Shown here: one piece after another, positions 1-40,034 of the stretch
How positions within the stretch are numbered: the stretch's first letter is position 1
Layout of the letters: each line of letters opens with the position of its first letter
Assembly: GCA_021234155.1 (NCBI GenBank)
Contig: JAJEKV010000021.1
Location: 10,531,523-10,595,522 of the forward strand
Direction of reading: 5' to 3'
From: Isoetes taiwanensis
Lineage: Eukaryota > Streptophyta > Lycopodiopsida > Isoetales > Isoetaceae
DNA length: 64,000 bases
Notes under the pieces: generated by a model
Seen by the model: the letters and a program-made list of their open reading frames with translations, nothing else
Database searches by the model: none
What the model was told of the DNA's origin: nothing
Position numbers and translations under genes: made by a program

Positions 1-29
1 ATAATACCGAGTGCTCTGTTTCAATGTAG

Positions 30-586
30 GCAACAAATCTGGCGATTCGAGTACTATGAGCAATAGAGAAAATGAGGGCATAGAAGAAGGAGCTGAGGAA
101 AGGGGCCGATACGTGGGAGTGAGGCAGAGAAAATCTGGCAAATGGGTTGCAGAAATACGGGATCCGGCGCGAAAAAATCGAAGATGGCTAGGCAGCTTTA
201 AGACTGCAGAGGAGGCAGCTATGGCATATGATGCAGAGGCCAAAAGGATCAGGGGCAAGAAAGCCAAGCTGAATTTTTCTGAAGAACAGTTTCAAATGAA
301 TATCTTGATGATTCAAGAATCCAAAGCCTCACTACAGAGAGCAAACACAGATCAATCTGCTGGAAATACATTGTGCAATGCAGAGGATTCGTACCTGCAA
401 CCACACGTAGATCCGTCCACATTTTTTGATATGCATGAAAATTACATGCTAGATTTTCCTATAGATCAATACCATTCGTCTGATACAAATATCTACGAGG
501 ATGATGGACCATATGATCTGCACAACACTGTACAAATCTGGAATTTTGATGACATGCCATCACCAGCTGATCATGTGTCTATTTAA
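30..586 (+). CDS. AP2/ERF transcription factor, group VII-like, 3' exon (5' partial)
   Basis: The frame contains one complete AP2/ERF DNA-binding domain, from RYVGVRQR to AKLNF, with the WVAEIRD and WLGSF blocks that contact GCC-box or DRE DNA. The block [18 protein letters not shown] is most like group VII ERFs (RAP2.12/HRE, hypoxia response). The acidic tail ends with IWNFDDMPS, which resembles their C-terminal activation motif. A polypyrimidine run followed by TAG ending at base 29 looks like a 3' splice site, so the true start, possibly with the MC N-degron of this group, probably lies left of the window. If the gene is single-exon, the first ATG is at 56. The stop is TAA at 584-586. Fold assignment is firm; subgroup is inference from motif likeness. 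Confidence 0.85.
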
Positions 587-19510: not shown

Positions 19511-19889
19511 ATCTGCATCATACCTCCTGCAAAATCTGCATGTGCGTGACCCAGTTGAGTGTAGAACTATACCTGCTGCTCCTACACTGACCCGGTGCTA
19601 CACTGACCTGGTGTTACAGTCAAAATAGTCACAAATCAGCCTACACTTCTAACAATAGATGCTCCTGGCGATAAGGTTGTCGGCTTACCTGAGATTACAG
19701 CGAGATTCGAAGCCGATACAAATCTGCATTGTATTGAGCCCAGACACTAAATCGAGGGAGTGAGAGAATAAGAATCCGCCACGCTCGAGGTAATAGAAGA
19801 CCCCAAACCGTCAGATCTAGGAGGATGAATCTCAGCCCTCCAATTTAGGGCTGGGTCCAACACTTACACAATAACATTATAATATAAGA

Positions 19890-22800
19890 TTATCAAGAAG
19901 TCCATGGTAAGGATAAGACTATGGAAAGGTGGACCAATTTCACACAAAAGGAAGATGAATCAATTAGAGAGTATAATCAGAGGTATATTGCGGTTCTCAA
20001 AGCCGTGGTTCATTGGAAGATTGCAAGGAGTGATGAAATGGATATCCAATGGTATGTGAAGGGGCTGAAACGAGCTATTGCTCATAAGGTGAAGGCCAAA
20101 CAGCCTACAACATTGCTAGAGGCACAAAAGTATGCTCTCAAGGCTGAAGATAAGCTGGGATACATTCATGAAGTTGCTGCTCCAGAGCATAAAACAGAGG
20201 ATATTGCAGCCAAGATTTCTAAGCTTACAATTGGTGAGAAGCCAAGGGAGGTGCAGTTTATTACTTGTGAGTATTGTGGGTCTATTGGGCATTCTGATAC
20301 TACATGTAGATTGCTGAAATTCTGCTCAAGATGCCAAATCAAGGGCCATAATGATCAAGAATGTAGGGAGAAGAGATTCTTTGAGAGGGCCAATCCAGTA
20401 TTTGCTGTTATGCAACAAGCACCACCTATTCCTATTCAACCAATGCAGGCAGCACCTATCATACCACCAGTTCCAATGATGCCACAAGCTCCAATTGCCC
20501 AACAAGTTCCAATGGGTTCCACACCAATGGTGCAGCCAAAACAGGGATGGTATCCAAGTAAGGCTCATTTGTATTGCAAGTTATGTGATAAATTCAAGCA
20601 TGATGAGACTACTTGTTGGAAAATTCATGGGAAACCGGAATGGGCAACCAACAAGTATCCACCAAGGCAGCAAGTGTTTGAATCAGTACCTCTTCCTAAT
20701 AATGATGTTCGCATTCAAGATGCAAAGTACATTGAAAATCCTCAAGTTAAGGCTCTTATTGAGGAGCTTAAGAAGCAAGAGAAGGCAAAATCAGTAGTAA
20801 ATTGTGGATTTGTTGAGGTGGAGACTGACCCATTTCAGCAAGAAGAAGAGATTGGAGAAGTAAATGCAGTTACAAGATCACAAAAGGTGGTTCAAGAACC
20901 AAGAGTAGTGCCAATTGCGGAGAAGACTAAGACCTCTTTTCCAAAGGCCTTGAAGGAACAAGCTTTGAAGGTATCAGCACCTAAGAAGGTGCAATTCAAT
21001 GTGTTGCCCACAGAACAGTTTCAGTCTATAGAAGAAAATCAACCCATAGTGATGCCTCCTATGGTGGATGAAGAAGTTCAAAATGAAGATGATGTGATCA
21101 GCCAAGTTTTGGCCACTAAAGTCACACTTACTCTTGAGCAATTGATGCATTATTCTCCAAATTTGTTGCAAGAGTTAGGGGGAAGAACAAAATCAGAAAT
21201 TTCAGTCCAACAAATCATATCCAATGATACCAATAAAAGTAGAATGGAGCCACCAGCCCGGCAATCCAAGGATCCAGGGCCATTTCTTTGTGATGTGAGT
21301 ATCAATGGGTATTTAATCAAGGATGCCAACGTAGATACCGGCAGCGGAGTGAATGTAATGCCTTACCACATCATGCTTCAAGTTGGATTAAAAATGATGG
21401 AACCGACAACTATGATGCTCAAAGCATTCAATCAAATGAAGGTGCAGCCTATGGGAGTCATAAGAAATGTCTTATGCAAGGTCTATGAGGTGGAAGCAAT
21501 CTTAGATTTCATGGTTTTGAAATTTCCAGAGAGTGTGCATGCTGAAACTTATACTTTGTTGCTGAGTCGTACATGGTTAGATGCCGTACAAGCTGAGATT
21601 TCATGGAGGAAGCGTGAAATGAACATCTTTCAAGGGGAACACAAGGTTACTATAGATCATCCTCTGAAATCAGCAAAAGGTACCTTTCTTTGCAACCCTT
21701 CTTTGAGCAGCCCGCAGTTAGAAATCAGCAAAGAGAATGCTATGGTGTCAGGGCAGCAAGGTCTTAGTTGTTTTCATGTCTTGGAAGTGGGTGACAGGGA
21801 ATATAAGACTTTGTTCAAGTGGTTAAAAGGTACCCAAATTTCAGAAATATGTCATTTACAGCAGCAAGTTGCAGATAAGTATATCCAAAGACTTGAAAGT
21901 ATTGGTGAAGATGAGCTACAAGAGACTCTTGTAAACATGCAGGAGGAGTCCATTCAAAGACCCATTGGTGAGACTTTATTTCAGCAAGGTATTGATCAAG
22001 ATCAAGTAGAGATGTTGATTTTGACGTCAAGCATGGATGGGGTAAACAGAAATCAGCCCACTATACAAGTACAAGCAGCTTGGTGGCATGCGCACATTCT
22101 GGAGGATGAGGTAAATCAGATCAGTCCATATTCACCACAGTCATCACAGTCACCACATGCACCACATTCATCACAATCATCACATCCACCACATCCATTA
22201 CAGTCACCACAATCATCACACGCACCACATTCATCACTGTCACCACATTCACCACAGTCACCACATTCACCACATTCGTCACCACATTCACCTTCATTAC
22301 AGTCACCACATTCAGTCAAGAACATCAATATTTCTCAAGGAAATCAAGAAGAATTGGTTACTATTGGAGAAGATCTTACTCAAGAGGAGGAACGTGATTT
22401 GATATCTTTATTAAGAGAATTCAGGGATGTTTTGGCAAGAAATTACAAAGAATTGAAAGGCATTCCACCAGAGGTCGTGGTCCATACCATTGATTTGAAA
22501 CAAGGATCAAAACCAGTCCAACAAGCTCAAAGGCGAATGAGTCCAGCAATAGAGGAGCAAGTAAAGGCTGAAGTTATGAAGCTTTTGGAGGCGGGATTTA
22601 TTGTACCAGTGCCAAATTCAGATTGGATCAGTTCTATTGTACCAGTGAGAAAGCCAAATAACTCAATCCGAGTATGCATTGATTACAGGGATCTCAACAA
22701 AGCTACCAAAAGAGATCATTTTCCTACACCATTCATAGACACCTTATTGAATATTGTTGCAGGAAATCAGGCCTATTCTTTCTTGGATGGTTACTCGGGA

Positions 22801-24582
22801 TATAATCAGATCCAAATCTATCCACCACATCAAGCAATGACGGCTTTTCGAACACCTTTTGGCATCTATGCTTATAAGGTATTACCTTTTGGCCTCACAA
22901 ATGCTCCAGCCACATTTCAGAGAGCTATGACATATGCTTTTCATGATATTTTAGACTTTTTGAGAGTCTTTATAGACGACTTGACAGTGTTTTCGAATCC
23001 AAGAAGGAATCACTTGGATCATCTCAGAAAAGTTCTTGAAAGATGCCGATTGTATGGCATAAGTTTGAATCCTGCTAAGTGTATTTTCTTCACTAGAAGA
23101 GGGAAACTATTGGGCAATTATGTTTCAGAAAAGGGATTACAAGTGGATCATGGTAAGATTGCAGCCTTGGAGAAGGTCAAACCACCTACAAATGTATCAC
23201 AAGTGAGAAGCTTATATGGCCAACTCAGTTTTAGTAGGAGGTATTTGCACAATTTTGCTAAAGTAACCCAGCCACTTGTGGATTGTATGAAGCAAGGGCA
23301 GAATTTTAGATGGAAGGAGGATGCTCAAGAAGCATTTGAATGGTGTCTTGGACAATTGAAAGAGAGAACTTTGTTGATTCCTCCAAGAATGAGTGAGACT
23401 TTTTATTTATTCTTTACTGTTTGGGAGCAAGCTTTGGCTGTCACATTATGTCAGAAAAATCAGCAAAAGCATTATGATGTGAATTACTATGCTAGCAGGT
23501 TGTTAACTCCACAAGAGCAGAAATGGACTCATGTGGAGCATCTTGGGTTAGCATTGAAGTGGGCCTTGAACAAGTTTAGACATTATCTTCTTCCTTCACA
23601 ATGGAATTCAGCAAATGTACAGTATGTTTACATTCATATGGATGTGAACCCGTTGCCATGCATTTACAACAAGACTGTCCAAGATCCTAAGTTTACAAGA
23701 TGGGCTCTTATCATACAAGAATTTGAGTTGAAGTATGTTAAGATGGCTCAAGGAGCTCATAATCCAAGTGCCTATTTGAGTAGTGGTGCTGAAATAGAAG
23801 AGGAAACAGACCATCAAGTAGCATTTCAGGATAATGGAGTATTACAGGGGTTCATTGAGACCGTGGATCTTTGGTATGCCAATATATACAGGTATTTACA
23901 GGATCAGACTTATCCTTCATCATTTTCAAAGCAACAAAAGCATGCTCTTAGAGTGCAAGCAGCTGGTTATGTGGTGCATGAAGCTATTCTTTATAAGAGG
24001 ACTATGGAAGGTCTCTTATTAAGGTGTGTTGCTGGTCAGCAAACTCATGATTTGTTGCAGCAAGCACATGATTGTCAGGGACATTTTGCAGCAAGAACCA
24101 CAGCTAGGAAGATCCTTCATTGGGGATATTATTGGCCAACTCTTTACAAGGATACTAGAGACTTTGTTAGCAAATGTGAGAAGTGCCAAAGGCATAAACA
24201 ATTAACAGGCCACAATAATATGCCATTCCATCCTATTTTGAGTGTTGGTCCGTTTCATATGTGGGGATTGGATTACATTGGGCCTATCAATCCTCCATCT
24301 TCCAAAGGTCATAAGTATATCTTGGCAGCCACATGTATGTTTACGAAGTGGGTAGAGGCAATTCCAGCAAAGCATGCTACAGAAAATACCACAGTAAGCT
24401 TTCTTTATCACAATTTGATTTCTCGGTTTGGTGTTCCAACCATTCTTTTGTCGGATCGGGGAACTCATTTCATGGGAAAAGTAGTAGCTCAGTTAACAGA
24501 AAAGATTGGTGTTCAACATGTGCAAGCTTCTGCTTATTATCCACGGGGCAATGGGCAATTTGAGTCTACTAACAAAATTTGA
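19890..24582 (+). pseudogene. gag C-terminus, protease, reverse transcriptase, RNase H and integrase
   Basis: Gag continues through WTNFTQKEDESIREYNQRY to three CX2CX4HX4C zinc knuckles. Protease shows VDTGSGVN (about 21331). A low-complexity Ser/Pro/His stretch (22126-22316) precedes reverse transcriptase, which has YRDLNKATKRD, PFGLTNAPATFQ and FIDD (22971-22982) in place of the usual Y/F-x-DD. RNase H has the YYASRLLTPQEQKW and EHLGLALKW blocks, but its first catalytic Asp position reads TVWEQA, so it may be inactive. Integrase has an HHCC finger and the Asp, Asp, Glu set at GLDYIGP, LLSDRGT and GQFEST. The frame ends at a TGA (24580-24582), where one base is missing. Confidence 0.92.
22126..22316 (+). 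repeat. In-frame CAC/TCA trinucleotide tract within pol
   Basis: Imperfect repeats of CCACATTCATCACAGTCAC encode a Ser/Pro/His/Gln-rich linker between protease and reverse transcriptase. The base composition and unit resemble the LTR minisatellite. Confidence 0.85.
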
Positions 24583-26951: not shown

Positions 26952-27418
26952 TGTTTAGTTAAACTCAAGATATCATCATTTGAGTGTGCTTACGTTTTTC
27001 TGTTTCACGGAAGTCCACTGGCTAAATTTTCTGCCAACTTTGAACCTTAATTTCTCAGTCATCCCAAATTCAAATTGAGCCAAATTTTTTCCCATATCTT
27101 ACGAATTTTTCTGATTTGTTCTTCCTCATTTGAAAAAGATCAGTACAGCTTCAAATATTCAAATCTGAGTGCAACTGCCTCATTTTGCTTTAGGAATCCT
27201 GAAGTGATTTGCCAATTTTTCACAAATGGTTGCCTCAAGCAACCTCGAGGTTCTAACCATATAGAATCCACTAAGGTTGATCTAAGTGCCAGGCATTGGA
27301 TCAACCTTTTGGAGGTTCTACCAAGATCTTCTTCTTGCTAATTGATTTGGGCTATGGAACTTAATGTTTGTGAGTTCCAGCAATTGGGATTGTTCTTCAT
27401 TGTTTCGAATGCTAAAAG

Positions 27419-27823
27419 TTGAAGTGCTACTATGGAGCAAGTTGCCAAGGCAAGAATAGTCCAACATCACCAATTGCCATACAAATTGATGTGATTTGGC
27501 CTACTCAAGCTCCTCTTTATCATGGTATTAAAGAGCCTCAACAGTATCTTCATAAATTTGAGGACTACTTTAATGATTATGGCAAAAGAAGTGGTAAAAA
27601 GATAGATGTGTTTGGCATATGTATAAGAGATGAAGCAATCTATTGGTGTGAATATGTGAAGACTATGGGAGTGAATCAAGTGAGTGAATTAAAGAAGAAA
27701 TTCATCAATAGGTGGCGAACACCTGTCACACAAGAGAGACTAATTCAAGAATTACCCAAATTGGTCTTGAAGGAGCGTGAAGATGTGCAACACTTTTGTG
27801 AGAGATTCTATACCATCTACTAA
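27419..27823 (+). pseudogene. Retrotransposon gag relic from a different element
   Basis: The frame encodes WPTQAPLYHGIKEPQQYLHKF, EAIYWCEYVKTMG, SELKKKFINRWRTP and ERLIQELPKLVLKEREDVQHF, the helix-rich order of a plant retrotransposon Gag N-terminal domain. It differs from the gag at 15807. It has no zinc knuckle or pol and stops at 27823, just before the ends of the block at 27856. No LTRs are evident. The upstream 26990-27400 is probably leader of the same relic. Confidence 0.65.
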
Positions 27824-28137
27824 CAAGATTGCGTATTAAACGGGAGCAAACCATCGAAACGAGAACAAAAGGAATATTCCTCAAAGATTCCCTTTTTTTA
27901 ACAAAAAAAGGGGGTAAAACGAGGTTAAAAAAAAAAGATGCATGAAATTCTATTTTGACCCCCCCCCCCCAAATGACTAATTTTTTTGTGCGACGAAAGA
28001 ATTGACTTTTTTAAAGTGTCACTTTTCTTAGCAAATAGAATGTTCTTGAAGTATGTTTTAAGAAAGAAACTCTAATTTCAGAGGATAAAATATTTAACAA
28101 AAATTGAAGTAAGTCTCAGAATCAAACTGTAGTATTT

Positions 28138-31100
28138 TCAAAATTTGAAGATAGAATCTTCATATTCACATGCAAAATTTCTGATCTTTTTTCTAAGACT
28201 TCGATTATGTACAAAAGTGTGAGGAGTGATGAGAGAGGGATCCAGGACGTCATCATATTCATTTATGTCATCCTTATCACCTTCACTTCTTTCACTGTCA
28301 CTCGATGAAGTGCTTGAGTTATCTTCCTCATCACTATCAACAGATGGTGAAGCATTGCCACCACCTTCTTCATCCTCTTCTTCGTAATTACAAGCTTTTT
28401 TAAGCAAATTGATAGTCCTCTGGCGTAGACGATTGTCAGATTTCAATTTAAAATCATAGCACAATATAGTCACGTCATTAAGGTTCAGCCCATCCCTACA
28501 ACCCACCTTCTTGGACTTTCTCCCTTTTCCTTGGCTTCTCATTTCTAACTCATATCTACCTTCAAAAGCATTTTCTGAGCGTGTTGCAAGCCAATGGATC
28601 TTGAGTTTAGTGACTAAGCCTTCCTCCTTGACTGTGTCAAGCACTTTTGCTATCCAAAAAAGTCGACCTTTGTCATCCTCCTCAGTTGGAAGAGCAATTA
28701 GCATACCTTTGGTAATTTCTGTGATATTACCTTGAGGCTGATTCCTGCGTCTTGGTCCGAGGTACATGACTCGATCCTCGTCTTCTTCTACTGCAGGTGC
28801 TAATGTAGCATTGCTTGGACCTGCTTGGTGCTGGGGTTGATGGAAGGTGTTAGGCCATTGAAATGGTTCTTGCAACTGTCTTAGAGCTATATTTTGTACA
28901 ACAATTTTCTGTTCGAGAAAGAAATTACTCCACCACATCCGATCTTCTTCTAAGAAGTACTTAAAGCCTGAGGAAATTCCATTTTCAATGGCTTTTAAGG
29001 ATGACGCTGGAGTACTTTTCTTCTGCTTGGACTCCTTAGGATTTTTGAGAGGAAGTTACTCAGCACGTTCTATGAAGGAAGTGTCTGGAATATATTTAAG
29101 GAAGCGTAATCTGGTGGACTCCAGTCCTTAGTTGTGGTATACTTCTTCCCCTGTAAGAAGCTTTGGCCATCCTTCAAGTAGAACTTGATGTGATGTTGGA
29201 AGGTGAGATCATTCAACTTGTTCACAGCTTGTTCTCTGTCTGAACGTTGAGAGAAAACAAACTCTCTAAAATCAGCAGTCTCTTTAAGAAGATCGATCAC
29301 TGGAGTGGGAGTGTAAGAATCTTCAATAATTCGAACTAAAGTAGGAAGAGAAAAAGCCTTCTTCCTTCTAAGGCGCACAGAAAATCTGCTGAACATTTGG
29401 TCAATCTGATCATGAGTGTGGCCTACAAGTAAGAAACCGAGCTTCACTTTTCTAAAGATCCCTAGCTCCACTAACATGGCACAGTAAGCAAAGAGTGTTT
29501 GATTCTTGTTCTCCCTTGTAGTATTGTCAAGTTGCAGGTAAAGCACTGGTGGTAACTGCTCTTGCTCGCACAGGACCTTGTTAAGAATTATAATTGTGAG
29601 GTTCGGGTCACCATGCAAGTTTGGATACGTCAAAAATACTTTGCACTTTAGACTTCCTTTGAAGACCATAGCTCCTACAAGGTGGACCTTAACAAAACAT
29701 TCCTCTGGCACATCTTTAGGAATGTTCAAGAAATAGGGTAGAGTAGTTTTTTTTTTTATCCATTCCATCAATCACAACAGACATATATTGCAGTGGACGT
29801 TCAAGAGCTTTTTTTCTGTGCTTGGCAAGCTTTCTTCTCTCTGCTGCTTGTTGTTCACGATGTCTGGCAAGGTTCTGTTGCACAATATCTGTAAAAGAAA
29901 TCAGGTCAAAGCATTTTCTTTAAAATAAGTGAGAGATTGGAGAGCATGAACTTACTTCTTTCGACCTCTGTCTTTGCAGTCTCTCGTTGACTTTTTAATT
30001 CTGCACACCTTGAGCAAACAGACATTCTATGTCTCCTGGGAATTTTCACAAGACCGAATTCACTTTTCCACAGTCTTGTGAAGTGTGAGTAAGAGATGTG
30101 CTGAAGCTGAGTGCAAGTCTCCTTGTACTCATTAAAAACATCTTTTTTGGTGATGTTATCAGTTAAATGATACATGTTGCTGTTAGGCAGCTTCGCACAT
30201 GTTTCTCTGAAATATTTCTCCATCCATGACACAGCAGCAAGGCTCTTCTTGGTCCACAATGATCATTAATTGCTGGATTTTTGTCCAGTCTTTTGTGTAT
30301 TCTAGACATTCTGGTGGACCCTAAACGGTGGACAACCATAAAGCATTTCTGGCAAACTTCTTCATGGTTAATGTAGTGCAAGAAGGTGTTGCGGTCTGGT
30401 CTTACATGATAGGCCAAGTAGGCATTCTGGTCAGCCAATGTCATTGAACTGTAGTTGTCTCTAATTGCTCGTAACTTAGACATGTTAAATTTGTTGATGC
30501 AACCCAATGAGCAGCATTTACTTCTTAATTCTCATTTTTTGCTCGTCCATAAGGTTTCTTCTTCTTACAGAGGAGCATGCTCTCAAACTATAATCCACCT
30601 TGAATTTTTTGGTGGACTGGCTAGAGAATGTGTAGTCTCGTTGCACCTCGTTGGTGTCTTCATCGTCTGAAGAGAGTTCTACTCTGGGGGTGACCTCCTC
30701 TACCCTTAGTGGTGTTCTTGTAGAGGAGAACAAACCACGTGAAGCTGTACCCAGATAAGGCAGAGGTACTGTGTTGAATGAAGGAGATGGGCCAACATAT
30801 GATGTGCCAGCGAAAGTTGTTGCAGCTTCTTCACAAGGAATTCGTTCAAACATGTCCCATATAGCCGACTGAAATTCTGCAAACCCATGTGTCACCACGG
30901 TTGTGTGAAGAGGAGTAGATGCTGCAAGGTCATCTTCATTTGTAGTGAAATCGTGGTGGGAGAAGCGATGGAGAATCTCGCAGTCTTCGGAACGTGCTGT
31001 ATTGCTTGTTTGTATAAGTGAAGAAGGAGAAACTACAAATGGCTGAGGTAGTCTGTTTCGAAAAATTTGCTGAGGTCGTGTAGTGTCGGGGGATGGTACA

Positions 31101-31380
31101 AATGGTGCTGGAAGATTGCTACGTGCAACAGGTGAGGCTGTGAAAGGAGGTGGCAGCCGGTTTCCTACTGGACTTGAGAGGCTTGGAAAGGTGGTGGCAG
31201 TCTACTAGTTACTGGACTCGGAGTGTCTTCGAGAAGCAACAAAGACCTTGTTGAGATAGGAGTTGAAGAAGCATCTCCGTCTTGTGTTCCCTCTGAAGTA
31301 GAGAAACTTGGGCAAACAAATGGTAGTGGAAGTTTGTTCACGAAGCAGTTAACCATGTTAAACAACTGCAAAAAATTGTG
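28138..31380 (-). pseudogene. DUF7869-type transposon-associated protein, decayed
   Basis: Recognisable minus-strand parts in order: Pro/Ser-rich repeats with NRLPPPF (31.3-31.0 kb); SSVRRRNLMDEQ; MSKLRAIRDNYSSMTLADQ and HEEVCQKCF; CSRCAELKSQRE (two Cys); a 67-bp intron at 29889-29955; VVIDGMD; LQLDNTTRENKN with HTHDQIDQMFS (29.39-29.54 kb); and a C-terminal chromatin-reader-like part, MLIALPTEEDDKGRLFWIAKV, with an acidic Ser-rich tail. The LDN...ENKN plus HTHxxID signature is that of DUF7869 proteins, a large repeat-associated eukaryotic family whose catalytic role is, to my knowledge, unproven. Breaks: shifts near 31.15 and 30.25 kb, at the T11 run 29747-29757 and near 29.08 kb, and TAA at 29056-29058. 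It probably served as the transposase. Confidence 0.7.
29889..29955 (-). other. Spliceosomal intron (67 bp) in the DUF7869 gene
   Basis: The minus strand reads GTAAGTTC at the donor and TTCTTTTACAG at the acceptor. Joining restores a charged frame from KTEVER to NLARHREQQAAERRK. It supports a eukaryote-adapted gene rather than a recent bacterial or phage transfer. Confidence 0.7.
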
Positions 31381-31742
31381 GACTTCTCAGTAACTCACAA
31401 GTCTGTTGGACTAATGATATTCGAGAATACAAATGCTATTCCAGAATACTATTTTGTGTGCAGCATTTGTTGTGTATGTGCATGGATGCTATTCCAGAAT
31501 ACACTTGTCCAGAGTGTTTGGACAAGACGTATTCCGCATCACATAGAAAAACACAACTGACAGTGGCCTACCTTTAAAAAGGAAATTTAAGCGCCTCAGT
31601 TGCGTATTCCGCTTTCAGAGTTCTAGTCGCCAGCCCGAGCGCCTTCCGACCTATATTAATTTGCTGTATTCCGATTTACATAGCGAAAAAAAATGGACAG
31701 GTAAGCATGTAAAGTACATAGTACGTCTTTCGTGTGTTTCCT

Positions 31743-31994
31743 GATTGACTCCTGAAGGGCAAAGTGTATTCCAGAATACACCTTGCCCTTCCCCTGAAGG
31801 GCAAAGTGTATTCCGGAATACACCTTGCCCTTCCCATGAATGGCAAAGTGTATTCCGGAATACACTTTGCCCTTCAGGGGAAGGGCAAGGTATATTCTGG
31901 AATACACTTTGCCCTTTAGGCGAAGGGCAAAGTGTACGGAATACACTTTGCCATTCAGGGGAAGGGCAAAGTGTATTCTGGAATACACTTTGCC
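31743..31994. promoter_or_regulatory. Palindrome array 1 between the divergent genes (six units)
   Basis: Near-perfect palindromes GTGTATTCYRGAATACAC, or variants, are centred at 31764-31781, 31806-31823, 31848-31865, 31890-31907, 31932-31946 (shortened) and 31971-31988, spaced 42 bp apart with little variation (41-45 bp). The flanks GGGCAAA and TTTGCCC, and CCCCTGAAGGG between units, extend the dyads. Degenerate single copies lie at about 31427, 31487 and 32185. The array sits between the inferred 5' ends of the two genes, where a shared promoter or protein-binding platform would be. Confidence 0.85.
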
Positions 31995-32248
31995 TGTCCT
32001 TTTGAAAACGCTTGTATTTTAGCCTAAACATACCACTTTTTAGCTTAAACAGACCACTTTTTAGGTTGAACATACCACTTTTTAGTCCAATTAAAGCATG
32101 AAAAATGGAGTTAGAGCGACAATGTTTTCTCTTGTTTTTATGTCTTTTGCTGGCCTTCAGGGCAGAAGTTTAGGAAATCTTATTCTGGAATACAATTTTC
32201 GTCCCGTTTGATGTCCTAACATTGTTGTTTTAAACGTTTCACTGGCAG

Positions 32249-33775
32249 GCAAGAAGGAAGCAAGAGGGCACCAAAAAAAACTCTCAAGCTCAGGCGGCCA
32301 CACTCAATGAAGCAGACCGCGGACACGGACGAGCCAACAATTTATGAAAACTTCCAAACGCAATGGTTCATAACCAGGGATGCAAGCGGAAAATATAGCA
32401 CTCTGACCTTTCTACATGTCTGCAAGAGTGCTGGGAACAAACGGTACGCGGAGTCCGAGTTTCTTAACCTGGGGACAATAAAAGAGGTCTCCGAGGTTGC
32501 CGGACAAGGAGGTCAGGCGGGGAGGCTATCCTTCAAGACCTCCCAGGGATTCATTGTGGTAGACATCGCAAGCTTCAGAATTATCAGTGTGCGACCACAG
32601 CCACTGTACAATTTCATTTCTCACTACCGGACGAAATGAAGCCTGGCTACAATAATTAGACATGTTTGTTCTAGTACGAGCGAGGACTTTCCTGTCAGTG
32701 AGTCCGAGCAATCAGATGGAGGAAGATCACAATCATCACCTTCTGCTGGTACTTTGGGGAGGGAAACAGATGGAGGTTCCGAAGAAGAAGAAGCGGAAAA
32801 CCCCCCAGAGCAGGCCAAGAGACACCATAGCCGCTAAGGAACCGAAGAAGCAGAAATTGCAGCAGCTGGAAATTGCAGAAATCCCCGAGGGAAGCACAAA
32901 AAAGCAAAAGGGAAAAGGAAAAGCTCTCGGGGTAGCTATAAAAGAAAAGAAGGTTGATAAGACCTCCGAAAGAATGGAGGTTATAAACAGAGAGAAATTT
33001 CTACAAGGGATGATATATCTTCCTGTGACTTGCATGAAGCTGCCCCCGAAGAATGAAGCTGGTGAAAGGCCGCTTCAGGTTCGAAAAATTTATGCCGACC
33101 AGTTAAGGAACTTGAAGGACCAAATTAGGAGCAATCCAAATGCTCATGTGGCCCCAATAGTTGTCCTTGTTGACAGGGAGCAATGCAAAACCCCCCAGGA
33201 CTATGACAGAGAAAATGCAGAAACATACACTCACTACGTCCTGGGAGGAAATCATAGCTTCAAGGCAAGAAGGCAGCTGTACAAAGAAAAGAATAACCCC
33301 AGGTACCTCTCCGTCCTGTGCGCCATTTACTGTGGTCTCGCCGACGAAGAAGCAAAAATCGTTGCCAACGCCCACAATGCTGATAACGAGTACAAACTAA
33401 AAATGAGCTTCGTCGACAAGATCCAGTTTATGCACAGGGAGTACATGATATTTAAAGAAAGATATGGAGATGATTTAAAGAAACCGGCATACTCTTTAGA
33501 ACTGAAGGAAGCGTGCGCTGTGGAGTGCTGCCTCAAGTACGACGAGGCTAATAAACGGCAGTCTCTCATACCGCATGCAACTGGCATGGTGAACTAAAAA
33601 GTAAAGAAAAGGTCTCAGAAAAGAAGAAAGGTTCTGACGTCCCAAAGAAGGAAATGACGATAACAGTATGGAGAGAAATGCAGGGCTTTACAGACATGGA
33701 CATACTCGAAAGGCTACTGCAGAAGGTCGTAGATAAAGAATTTACGCTTGAAGAGATGTCCAAGGAGCTGCACAA
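32249..33775 (+). pseudogene. ParB-like domain region of a ParB-methyltransferase fusion gene
   Basis: An acceptor at 32248 (TTTCACTGGCAG) opens a frame with KWFITRD-like and FLNLGTIKEV segments, then an acidic Ser stretch and a basic PKKKKRK nuclear-localisation-like run. A ParB-type domain follows: IYADQLRNLKDQIRSNP, PIVVLVDREQ, YVLGGNHSFKARRQLYKE, then LADEEAKIVANAHNADNEYK. The GNHSFKAR box matches the G-N/D-H-R motif of ParB/Srx nucleotide-binding proteins. A charged helical region ends at donor 33776. The frame is broken by TGA at 32637-32639, a shift near 32.8 kb and a one-base shift near 33.58 kb. ParB-like domains fused to or beside DNA methyltransferases are common in phages and bacterial mobile elements. 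Confidence 0.72.
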
Positions 33776-33822
33776 GTAAGAACGACAGAACTTTCTTTTA
33801 AATTTTGCTTCCGTAGCATGAA

Positions 33823-34088
33823 GTGTATACCAGAATACACTTTGGCTTAGCGTGTAAGCTGAAGTGTCTTCCGGATTACACTTTTGTTTTCGGGAAGCCA
33901 AGGTGTATTCTGGAATACACTTCGACTTCTGTGGGTAGTCCAAAGTGTATTCCGAAATACACTTTGGCTTACAAGCTGAAGCAAAAGTGTATTCCGGAAT
34001 ACACTTTTGCTTCACGTTAAAAGCGAAAGTGTATTCCGGAATACACTTTTGCTTCGTCTAGTAAGCCAAAGTGTATTCCAGAATACAC
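33823..34088. promoter_or_regulatory. Palindrome array 2 inside an intron of the methyltransferase gene (seven units)
   Basis: Copies of the same 18-bp palindrome lie at 33823, 33864, 33903, 33945, 33987, 34029 and 34071, about 39-42 bp apart, within intron 33776-34163. The arms differ from array 1 but still pair: GCCAAAG with CTTTGGC, and GCAAAAG with CTTTTGC. Two half-decayed copies lie in another intron at about 34892 and 34910. Confidence 0.85.
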
Positions 34089-34163
34089 TTTGGCTTTTTC
34101 TTCTTGGTGTTTGCGTTTCTCGGAAAACAATACTCACCTAGTTTCATTGTTCTTTACTTCCAG

Positions 34164-35612
34164 CCAAAAAAATGTCATTACGTGCCAAACATGTTTAATG
34201 GAGCAGCTGAACGTGGACAACTGGGACAGATGTAAAGAGCTCTATCCCATTGCTACATTCGACGAGCGTATTATTCAATATGCTCCAAAATTTGAGGGCT
34301 GGGTACGTCATTTTCCTGTTTTTAATGTTTTTCCTTTGTGCTGTCGGCGTGACTTCATTTACTAACAGAGCAAGAAGAAGAACAAGGACCTACCAGAAGG
34401 TTTTATATGGTAAGAACGGCCAGAGAGGAGAGGACTCTAGCGGACAGGCGTATTGTAGATGTTGAGCCGTCCGACTACGAGAGGTTTTCCTTGTTTGATC
34501 AAAACAACCTTTACTCTATCATTCATGGGGACTGCACTAAGTTGCCAGGAAGTATAAAGCCACAAGATTTTACTTTGGTCATAGCAGACTTGCCATATGG
34601 GTTTAAGCTGAAGGATAGCCGCTACGACGATCAGCCTTTCAAGAACTCAGAATTCAATGCTTTCGTCGACGGAATTAAGCAGGTTACCGCAACAAAACAC
34701 TGGCATCTTGTTGTGTTCCACTCCAGCATGTAATCCGGCCTTGTGGAAGCTACTTTCAAGAACCACTTCGGTTCTCCTGTGCAAGCCGGTTATGAAAATA
34801 TGGTCTGGTGAGTCTTCAAATCTCGAGTGCAGTTGAAGCGTTCTTTCTTTCAAGTTTTGATTCATGGTTGCAATTGTAACCCGTCACGTTCCATTCTGGA
34901 ATACGTACTTATTATTCTGGAATACGATCTTGCAGGTACAAAACTAATATTAACTACCATGGTGGAGGACCGAGGCTGCTGAGCAAGATTGAGTATCTCC
35001 ATGTAGCTTACTGGAGTTTCGACGGGAAGCGTACCATGGAGCACTTCAACACAGCAGCCTGCCAAAATTTTTCTAATGTCCTAGAGTTCCCAGCAGTATT
35101 ACAGAAGCTCTAGGACCCAAGTGCACAGGGCAGAATTGTCAATCATTACCAGAAGCCACAGAAACTAATCAACCATATTTTGGATATGTTCTTACGTGAC
35201 ACGTCCAGGAGATTGGGTCCTTGATGCTTTCTCTGGCTCTGGTACAACAATAGCATGTGCACTAAAAAAGGGCCGTAATTGTGTTGCTGTTGACATTGAT
35301 AAAGAGGCTGTAGACTTTATCAAGATGAGGTTGTCTGCTCTACCAACTCTATCAGATGAAAATCAAGAGTTAGGAGCCAAATCATCATCAGACTTTGCCA
35401 AGATGACATCCTCTGAGATACAGCCTCCTTTTACAAGCTCTCTGGAAGATGAAGCTACCTTTGCAGAGCTCAAAGAAGTAGCTTTAGCTACTATTCCTGA
35501 AGAGACTGTTGACACCAGTAAAGATGAAACAGTGACAAAGGAGCAAACTGCAGAGAAAGACAAAGCTGGGACGAGCACACAACATACTGAGGACTTCGAT
35601 TTAGACCTCTGA
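34164..35612 (+). pseudogene. Class beta DNA N6-adenine/N4-cytosine methyltransferase, decayed
   Basis: Exons 34164-34302, 34379-34807 and 34936-35612 are separated by introns with GT/AG ends. Exon 2 has SIIHGDCTKLP, then ADLPYGFKL, a motif IV variant of D/N/S-P-P-Y. Exon 3 has a target-recognition-like region, then RPGDWVLDAFSGSGTTIACALKKGRNCVAVDID, that is AdoMet motifs I and II. Motif IV before motif I is the class beta order. The Asp variant favours N6-adenine, but N4-cytosine cannot be excluded. An acidic tail ends in FDLDL. Breaks: phase mismatch at exons 1/2, in-frame TAA 34731-34733, TAG 35111-35113, and a one-base shift near 35195. Expected to act on DNA in the nucleus, guided by the ParB-like part; inactive here. 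Confidence 0.8.
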
Positions 35613-36019
35613 CTTATCTTTTGCTAAATTATTTACTATTGGCTAAAAAAAACTGCCATATTTGGTGTACTGAAAGAAATTAATAAAAAAAAGATTCTTA
35701 TTTTTACGTTTTTTTGGATGTCCTCGAATTCCTAGTAATATTCCTGGTGTATTAATGTCTGGAATTTTGCCATTTTCAAGTGCTCTTTTCTACAAATGCA
35801 AGATCATCACTTCAAAAGAGCCTAAAATGCACGATAAAATATTTTCTTCCACTTGAAATCCCCAACTTCTTTTGAAAATGATCATTTTTTAAATCCTGGT
35901 GTTTTTTTAAGGGAATCTTTGAAACGAGAGTGATGCAACACTTCCATTTAATTTGCAATCGTGTTTACTTTGCTATTTCATTCCTGGTTTAAAAACAAAT
36001 TTCAAGGAAGAAGAAATAT

Positions 36020-37954: not shown

Positions 37955-40034
37955 TTATTTTGCTTGTTCGGCTATCTTCTCTAGTGACTTCAGAACTTTA
38001 TCCTTCACAGAGATTGGAATCTTCATGTACCCCTTTCTCGGATCCACCTTGCCTATTTTGGGGTTCCATGACATCAACACAGATATCATTTCCACCCATT
38101 GGGGGGAATCACTTGCATCATATTTCCATTGTTTCTTAAAACAATCTTTGTAGTGTTCTTTTTCAGTAATGACTCCTTTTCCACTTACTGGGTGCCACCA
38201 CTCCACATGCACCTTGTTTCTGTTAGGGTTATTAGCTTCCCTACAAACACTTGAGACGGTATACCCTAACCAAATAGGATAAGTATCTTCATCTGATGGC
38301 CTGACGATCAAATATTGGTCATCCTTCAAATCCATCTTAGGATCATATGGAGCAAGTCCATAATACTTAGAATGCTCTTTTCTAGGTCCAACATAAAATG
38401 GCCGTGATGCACTGCCATGAGTTATGAATCCAGCTAGTGATATTTGCAATGGGAAGGATCTCGCAACAGACTTTGGTATAGCCCTAAACTGAGGGAAACA
38501 TTTTGCTGATCCATCTTATCATGAATGACACATAAAAAATTCTCTGGTTCCATTGTAGACAAGCATCTCCACATTCAGTATGTTGATCGACATGACATTT
38601 GCTCCATCGTGTGAATTCTCATTTCTTTCTGCACCGCTGATCTTTCCACCTCAAGCTTCGACTTCTCGAGCTTATCTAACAAATCCACACATATATTGCA
38701 CTTTGAGAAGTTGTTATATTGCATTCTTTTGTCTAAAAAATGCTTACTCCAGATTGTTGAAATCTTGTCCACAACCATTTCCTCTAGAAAATTGTTGATC
38801 ATTTGTAAAATCACTGTTTGTGTGGAATATGCAGGCAACATTCGAACTACTTTTCTGCACTCCTCTTCATCAACCGCACTTTTGTGAGGCATTCTCCCAG
38901 CGTGATAGTTAACAAACCTCTCGAATAAACTCTGAGTTGCAAGCACTCTGGGGGTTGTTCTCGCTTTTCCCCAATTACCATGCCAACCTATTTGAGCCCC
39001 CCTCTTTTAGTTCCACCTAAATCTCCACCATGTAGAGGCTAATATACCTAGTATGGTTGTCACTGCACTGCTACATATCCACTTCCCACCAATAGGAGAT
39101 CCCCTGTTCTTAACATAAGGTGATGGCCCAAATGCATGTTCTATGATATTGTAAATATAAGTTTTTCTAGCGTTATGAGTTTTCTCCTTGTAGATTGATC
39201 TGGCTTCCACAAGTTCTTTCACTGTGAATCTACTAAAACAGTTGTTGGGGTAGCCACAATCCCCCCTCTGATGGCTTGCATGGTCTCTTCACTGCAGTGT
39301 ATCTTTCACAGTCTGAACCGTTTCCTTCTTCTTCCTCCTCTTCAAGAAGTTATAGACCCTTCTTTCTGGTATGGATACATCCATAGGAGGTATGGAAGGA
39401 ATGTTTTCATCCACCACCACATTATTTTCTCCAACATGCTCAGTTCTTTGAAGCAACCCTTTTTCTATTATCTCAATGGAGTCCACTGGCCAAAGCAACA
39501 AGGCTGGCAACTCTAAACCACTATTGATATTATTGCAAGCATAGCAATGTTTGTCCTTCAGCTCAACACTGAAGTTATGCTATGGATGTTGATATTTGTG
39601 CATAAGGACCTTTCCCTAGAATAAAGCTGTATTGAAGAAATGGAGACTTCCACAAAGTCATCACCAATAGCCTGTCCATTATAGCAGTGCATAGGATCCC
39701 ATAGTATAAGCACACCTTCACCAACAATTCCTCTGTTGCACTGATGATGCAAATTCACTTTCTCATCCTTCCATGTTAACCTAGAAACTACTATTCTTCT
39801 TTCCTCATTAGCACCAGTTGGGTTTTTAAAATTTTTTGCATTTAATTCAGGCGGCTGCTCATTCTTATTTGCATTGATCTCTTCCATATCCAAGTAATCA
39901 ACATCATTCTCTGCTCGAGGTTCTTGGTCACAGGGTTCCTCAGCACTAGCTTCAAGAGAAATCTGAAAATTAGAAGAAAGGTTGAGGAAAACATAGTATT
40001 GTATGCAATAACAATAAATGAAATATTTATACAA
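37955..40034 (-). pseudogene. Second DUF7869-family relic, internally deleted
   Basis: Minus-strand parts in order: WKDEKVNLHHQCNRGIVGEG with IGDDFVEVSI; RRVYNFLKRRKKKETVQTVKD; MKELVEARSIYKEKT; RMPHKSAVDEEECRKVVRM; KCNICVDLLDKLEKSKLEVER; VIHDKMDQQNVS; LQISLAGFITHGS; then a jump to KYYGLAPYDPKMDLKDDQYLIVRPSDEDTYPIWLGYTV. The order mirrors the gene at 28-31 kb, but the LDN...ENKN/HTHxxID catalytic part expected after FITHGS is absent and the flanks are fused. Several frames are used. The C-terminal reader-like module is the best preserved. It is inactive. Confidence 0.65.

Follow-up and report, generated by a model that had tools for sequence, protein, structure and literature searches.

A DNA transposon family of Isoetes taiwanensis (Lycopodiopsida) pairs a gene of the DUF7869 group with a divergent second gene for a ParB-like domain joined to a class-beta DNA methyltransferase. 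One decayed copy lies in the window, the whole 64,000-nucleotide stretch analysed here (assembly GCA_021234155.1, contig JAJEKV010000021.1, forward-strand positions 10,531,523 to 10,595,522). A mobile unit, the gene pair, low ratios of nonsynonymous to synonymous divergence (dN/dS), lineage-specific palindrome arrays and the replacement of one palindrome by another between lineages can all be read in the sequence. The favoured explanation is a self-marking transposon: the methyltransferase probably recognizes the lineage-specific arrays in the DNA of its own element. The original prediction for this DNA described an element at 27856–35929 and made no mention of the arrays, which lie within that interval. 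Palindrome arrays around the methyltransferase gene are new here.

The window copy spans 27822–35965 (8,144 bp), with ends common to 10 other copies. Comparison of these ends places a left terminal inverted repeat (TIR), AACAAGATTGCGTATTAAACGGGAG, at 27822–27846 on the plus strand and an imperfect right TIR at 35941–35965 on the minus strand, bounded by the target-site duplication (TSD) TACT at 27818–27821 and 35966–35969. The paired terminal repeats originally proposed are therefore real, and the element ends lie slightly outside the limits first given. Both ends were located in 11 of the 21 loci examined, and all 11 copies have perfect 4-bp TSDs of varied sequence (CTAA, GTGA, TAAG, TCAT, CATT, AAAC, GTAA, ATAT, AATT, TTAA and TACT). 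Only the right end was found at L012, L018, L019, L020, L024 and L025, only the left at L010, and neither at L011. A putative left end of L018 was discarded for its mismatch to the ends of other copies; L027, with a visible right end, was left out of the end set, and the sequence of L009 departs within the right end. The TIRs, the TSD of fixed length and an RNase H-like DDE fold, the last taken from a structure model, point to a DDE/D cut-and-paste transposon. The Kolobok and piggyBac superfamilies were rejected, since a TTAA-specific TSD is their rule in the accessible part of PMC9587614 and the TSDs of the 11 copies vary. Both genes of the window copy are broken by stops and frame breaks. 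Relative to copy L017, a deletion has also removed one predicted intron of the methyltransferase gene together with its surroundings.

The DUF7869 gene (28138–31386, minus strand) reads leftwards. Its identity agrees with the original prediction: Pfam family PF25273 matches at 29070–29771 with E=6.5e-52 and 176.3 bits, against a gathering cut-off of 26. Organisms with homologues include a liverwort, a fern and a sea urchin. The structure model of one close homologue, P0001 (mean predicted local distance difference test score, pLDDT, 85.9), resembles DDE transposases, and the 50 matches that VIA-align lists are without exception transposases or retroviral integrases. Projected onto the window, the DDE-like catalytic core would occupy 29070–29919 (minus strand). 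The C-terminal part of the gene (28138–29055, minus strand) would correspond to the C-terminal beta domain of the homologue, which is the candidate source of weak BAH-domain matches to the model (Foldseek E about 0.1–0.3). P0001 and P0010, DUF7869 pieces 88% and 74% identical to that of the window, come from 3468-bp public contigs ('ena') and may be environmental Isoetes DNA. A second, diverged DUF7869-type relic lies just right of the element at 38384–39285 (minus strand); over 271 amino acids (aa) it is 23.6% identical to a DUF7869 protein of sea urchin (E=1.4e-10).

It is well supported by sequence that the divergent gene, on the plus strand, encodes an N6/N4 DNA methyltransferase. The divergent spacer (31387–31692) contains palindromes at 31418, 31437 and 31490. 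The predicted first exon (31693–31700) reads ATGGACAG, with a donor site after it, and its frame continues at 32249. The predicted intron 1 between them (31701–32248) holds the first array, with palindromes about 42 bp apart from 31767 to 31985 and another at 32181. The following exon (32249–33597), its frame broken in between, carries a conserved N-terminal domain and the ParB-like domain (33067–33444). Further downstream are the predicted middle intron (33777–34163) with the second array at 33906–34085, a short linker exon (34164–34300), the N-terminal half of the methyltransferase (34403–34808), a predicted last intron (34809–34936) with one palindrome at 34913, and the C-terminal half (34937–35612). 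PF01555 (N6_N4_Mtase) matches the joined exon pieces with E=1.9e-16 (61.1 bits, gathering cut-off 26.7) and the single open frame 35169–35612 with E=1.3e-11 (45.3 bits). Motif IV, the catalytic DLPYGF at 34587–34604, precedes motif I, the S-adenosylmethionine motif DAFSGSGTT at 35223–35249. This is the class-beta order, and it bears out the class first proposed. Motif IV is present as D[LI]PYGF in 17 of 21 copies, and motif I in all 20 fetched copies as well as the window. The aspartate of DLPY or DIPY is typical of N6-adenine enzymes, N4-cytosine enzymes usually having SPPY, so N6-adenine is the suggested modification.

The methyltransferase matches phrog_67 (E=2.5e-23), and among solved structures its best match is CcrM, 6pbd (E=2.5e-11). 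Matching phage records number 721; the 20 matches listed among them cover the methyltransferase part only, at 22–25% identity, and three that were inspected are short methyltransferases of about 220–270 aa. Scanning of viral contigs with the element protein gave no confirmed match. In protein-database searches limited to sequences sharing exact words, the window-derived ParB plus methyltransferase protein had no relative at E<=0.01. A search of the same kind with the methyltransferase-part region returned a single protein at that threshold, P0121 (Gb_14868), which is 62% identical to the query across 19% of its length. Judged by its Gb_ prefix, this is presumably a protein of Ginkgo biloba, and a seed plant would then have an annotated relative of the element enzyme. 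Gb_14868 has PF01555; on inspection by eye, it also has part of the linker, and its catalytic domain is incomplete.

The ParB half of the proposed fusion is harder to assign. The GNHSFKAR motif noted originally is present, as part of a GG.H..KA signature, and TIGR03764 (ParB family protein) is the sole NCBIfam match (best E=1.3e-4, 21.7 bits against a cut-off of 143.75). The same match recurs in nine of the ten members of alignment A1. Pfam gives no ParB match. ParB-like PHROGs score weaker still (best E 0.0055 and 0.024), comparison with plasmids yields only weak matches, to proteins annotated as ParB (best E 0.1), and ParB proteins among solved structures give no match to the domain.

In the window the palindromes are confined to the element: all 14 occurrences of the core TATTCNNGAATA lie within it. 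The palindrome of the window lineage is GTGTATTC-YR-GAATACAC; its 18-bp form, GTGTATTCYRGAATACAC, has 4367 sites in the genome searched (1,658,258,908 bases in 1,110 pieces) and the reversed control has 0. Over 21 loci 261 window-type palindromes were counted, with the extended consensus AAAGTGTATTC-CR-GAATACACTTT, and some dyads reach 24–38 bp. Spacing is regular: of the 154 neighbour distances below 100 bp, 95 measure 41 or 42 bp, close to four turns of the helix. Of the palindromes, 119 are in gaps of the methyltransferase gene and another 110 in the divergent spacer, exon 1 and intron 1 included. Twenty fall in stretches matching the methyltransferase protein, at two places with predicted short introns, and nine lie upstream of the methyltransferase gene where DUF7869 is missing. 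The last three are found beyond the spacer and methyltransferase half. None occurs in the DUF7869 gene over 48 kb from the 21 loci.

Different lineages carry different palindromes. Typing of 28 loci found none mixed: all 21 window-type loci have type 1 only, four loci type 2 only, one type 3 only and two none. L032 has the same divergent pair, with aa identities to the window, by stretch, of 57–65% for DUF7869 and 39–64% for the methyltransferase. It has no window-type palindrome; nine copies of GTATNAATTNATAC stand in the divergent spacer and in the intron predicted downstream of the ParB-like exon, the places that correspond to the window arrays. This type 2 palindrome, GGTATRAATTYATACC, has 7350 genome sites in its 16-bp form (control 0). 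L037, where the pair is present, has 25 type 2 sites, with most array spacings at 27–34 bp, about three turns. Ten type 2 sites are found in L035, where DUF7869 is accompanied by a fragment of the ParB-like region, and five in L033, where the methyltransferase was not found. In L036, with a methyltransferase 28–45% identical by stretch, a third type appears, GTCTATGCGCGCATAGAC and variants, eight by a loose core count. These are distributed over the spacer, intron regions of both the methyltransferase and DUF7869, and the sequence beyond the methyltransferase. Such wholesale replacement of the site between lineages is expected of a recognizer encoded by the element, not of a host factor. L034 and L038, which have DUF7869 without methyltransferase or palindromes, were dropped as negative controls, as other sequence adjoins them and they may be truncated.

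The gene pair recurs across the genome. A PF01555 search gave 1443 candidates; every one of the 150 that were scored exceeded the cut-off. Twenty methyltransferase loci were fetched non-randomly from these 150, being taken from high up in the list with some long frames added, and 15 have DUF7869 divergent to the methyltransferase within 10 kb. The corresponding DUF7869 search gave 9902 candidates, 150 of them scored. Between the two lists of 150 there are 24 pairs less than 15 kb apart, 22 of them divergent, where 0.4 would be expected. The two genes thus co-occur in many genome copies of the same divergent layout, in keeping with the intron-bearing eukaryotic transposon family originally proposed, its introns being predicted. 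Seven further DUF7869 loci were hand-picked from the list to represent other profile classes. Copies L015 and L017, which have different TSDs, reach 99.9% identity over the last exon and 92–99.7% over other segments.

Selection was estimated from stop-free copies at synonymous divergence (dS) between 0.1 and 1.5. Median dN/dS is 0.055 for the last methyltransferase exon (27 of 153 pairs), 0.096 for the N-terminal half of the methyltransferase (11 of 91), 0.087 for the ParB-like domain (9 of 45), 0.144 for the N-terminal exon (14 of 66) and 0.10 for DUF7869 (11 of 15). Close pairs (dS below 0.1; 1–14 for each exon of the methyltransferase gene and four for DUF7869) give pooled values of 0.08–0.36. 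Single copies decay, and lineages look to have been kept functional. The elements also appear to be mosaics that swap halves. Compared with the window, L013, L015, L023 and L028 are about 90–97% identical in the left end and DUF7869 gene, about 75–83% in the ParB-like and methyltransferase exons and 65–69% in the right end. A step of the same kind appears in L016 and L017; L014, L022 and L026 are diverged over their full length. L021 is at least 90% identical in most segments and 83–87% in the spacer, intron 1, N-terminal exon and middle intron; in both L015 and L021 identity switches after the N-terminal exon. The step between similar DUF7869 halves and diverged methyltransferase halves and right ends lies near the arrays or the N-terminal exon.

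Several known systems share parts of this design; the accessible portions of the papers cited provide the comparison. In VANDAL21, the motifs of VANC21 are repeated in tandem within introns and between genes, and related elements have different motifs (PMC5735166; PMC10398659). The Arabidopsis system thus resembles the Isoetes element in having element-specific motif arrays in non-coding DNA, with targets that change between relatives. It differs in that the second protein in Isoetes is a bacterial-type DNA methyltransferase, the transposase is of the DUF7869 group, the sites are long, regularly spaced dyads, and anti-silencing is proposed by analogy. Bce_0392 of Bacillus cereus likewise fuses a ParB-like domain to an adenine methylase (PMC5512222), whereas the Isoetes protein comes from a plant nuclear transposon with predicted introns and adds a further N-terminal region, with a conserved linker joining its two domains. 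The N4CMT of bdelloid rotifers and the Marchantia N4-methylcytosine (4mC) methyltransferase are eukaryotic captures of bacterial amino-methyltransferases as well, but they are host enzymes acting on transposons or genome-wide (PMC8885841); in Isoetes the transposon itself carries the enzyme. Unlike the rotifer chromodomain fusion, the window gene pieces scanned with Pfam, which exclude the linker exon 34164–34300, contain no chromodomain. Retrotransposons of dinoflagellates and charophytes have acquired C5 cytosine methyltransferases (PMC5890265) and are also mobile elements carrying a DNA methyltransferase. The Isoetes element differs from them as a DNA transposon with an amino-methyltransferase and dedicated lineage-specific arrays. 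DUF7869 has no mention in the literature searched, which excluded preprints and most subscription journals, and the pair with the ParB-like methyltransferase is not described in the titles and abstract openings of the matches listed from that literature. A word search of the available text of PMC12695648, on adenine methylation across eukaryotes, found neither Isoetes nor land plants.

The proposed mechanism can be outlined as follows. (i) A DUF7869-group cut-and-paste transposon carries the divergent gene for the ParB-like methyltransferase. (ii) A dimer of the methyltransferase protein would bind the dyads, probably by way of the ParB-like domain. (iii) The bound enzyme would methylate adenine, or less likely N4 of cytosine, in or near the dyads. 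(iv) This methylation would be the mark of the element on its own DNA. (v) The mark would most likely keep the element expressible or mobile despite host silencing, as VANC does in VANDAL elements; opposition to silencing is proposed because of the analogy with VANC21. Alternatively, the mark might gate transposition by replication state.

The last possibility, in which the enzyme senses replication state or copy number in place of opposing silencing, is the main functional rival. Dam gates IS10 transposition in this way, and a class-beta enzyme nearest to CcrM, a cell-cycle enzyme, acting on element palindromes could tell fully methylated from hemimethylated copies. Sites do not cluster at the ends, where a transposase must act, and gating of this kind is considered quite unlikely. 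The absence of the full dyad from the termini of the 11 end-defined copies, where only the shorter GGAATATTCC is found at the left end, counts against a second proposal, that the arrays are transposase binding sites. They would then form an internal transposition enhancer, like subterminal repeats, with the methyltransferase modulating transposase access. In its favour, part of the array is in the divergent spacer that both genes share, lineages of differing palindrome type are diverged in DUF7869 too, and L033 combines DUF7869 and an array with no methyltransferase detected. The sites are nonetheless internal, many are in predicted methyltransferase introns, and the DUF7869 gene of the window family has none. 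This proposal is judged unlikely, if worth serious attention.

Host transcription factors driving element expression are an improbable source of the arrays. The window-type core TTCYRGAA resembles a two-unit heat-shock element (TTCnnGAA), and some sites lie within the divergent spacer; yet loci of the same layout exchange the site wholesale for one with an AATT or GCGC core, and the 24–38 bp reached by some dyads and the position of many sites in predicted introns fit poorly with this role. That the methyltransferase is a captured passenger without a role for the element is highly improbable because of the selection data, with dN/dS at about 0.06–0.14. The layout is also kept in L032 despite the low methyltransferase identity, even if three of the seven other-class DUF7869 loci have no methyltransferase. 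Bacterial contamination or a chance assembly of relics, to which the many phage matches of this kind of methyltransferase might have pointed, is refuted by high copy number on many contigs, several of which are megabases long, by predicted introns and by TIRs and TSDs. The window itself lies 10.5 Mb into its contig, beside a Ty3 polyprotein.

A number of observations weigh against a self-marking transposon. Binding of the arrays by the transposase or a host factor is conceivable, and two L036 sites are placed in the intron region of DUF7869. A ParB assignment is plausible, yet its scores fall below curated cut-offs, hence 'ParB-like'. The TIGR03764 match drops to seven of nine members in the wider alignment A3, which includes diverged lineages. 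The single-sequence model of the domain is poor (pLDDT 56) and without a useful fold match; its fold-search result was discarded. The best fold score of the DUF7869 model, Z 9.0, is only slightly above the 7–8 typical of the tool for unmatched models. The GT/AG introns of the original prediction are found in the sequence as predictions only. Five of the 20 methyltransferase loci (L009, L018, L019, L020 and L027) have little or no DUF7869 within 10 kb, that of L019 sitting about 10.3 kb away, and two of the 24 close pairs are not divergent. Queries from the window and L032 found no methyltransferase at L033, L034 and L038. Most of the remaining methyltransferase-gene pairs in the selection analysis are saturated in dS (112, 75, 35 and 50 for the last exon, N-terminal half, ParB-like domain and N-terminal exon), and the choice of stop-free copies biases dN/dS downward. 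A laxer filter gives 0.025, 0.096, 0.087 and 0.155 for the same four segments and 0.233 for DUF7869. Finally, DUF7869 and methyltransferase distances are uncorrelated (r=0.04), a lack that mosaic elements would explain.

The surroundings of the element include other mobile sequences. By eye, a gag-like open frame (27416–27820, plus strand) adjoins the insertion point. The Ty3-type polyprotein is a single open frame of 1564 aa at 19888–24579 (plus strand) with reverse transcriptase, RNase H and integrase. An open frame with an AP2 domain at 5–583 (plus strand, E=2.5e-10) is possibly a host gene.

The significance of N6-methyladenine and 4mC in plants is debated. An enzyme that looks selected, with thousands of candidate sites of at least two types, makes the question directly testable. 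The published I. taiwanensis assembly was built with Nanopore reads, according to the accessible part of PMC8566536, and the existing data could possibly be re-read for modification at the palindromes. If the proposal is true, the element would offer a second, enzymatic way around the problem addressed by VANC proteins, and new sequence-specific proteins for epigenome editing could come from it. The chances are about even for the wider conclusion that a vascular-plant transposon has a sequence-specific DNA methylation system derived from a bacterial-type ParB-methylase, in which enzyme and target arrays co-diversify to give each lineage a private epigenetic address.

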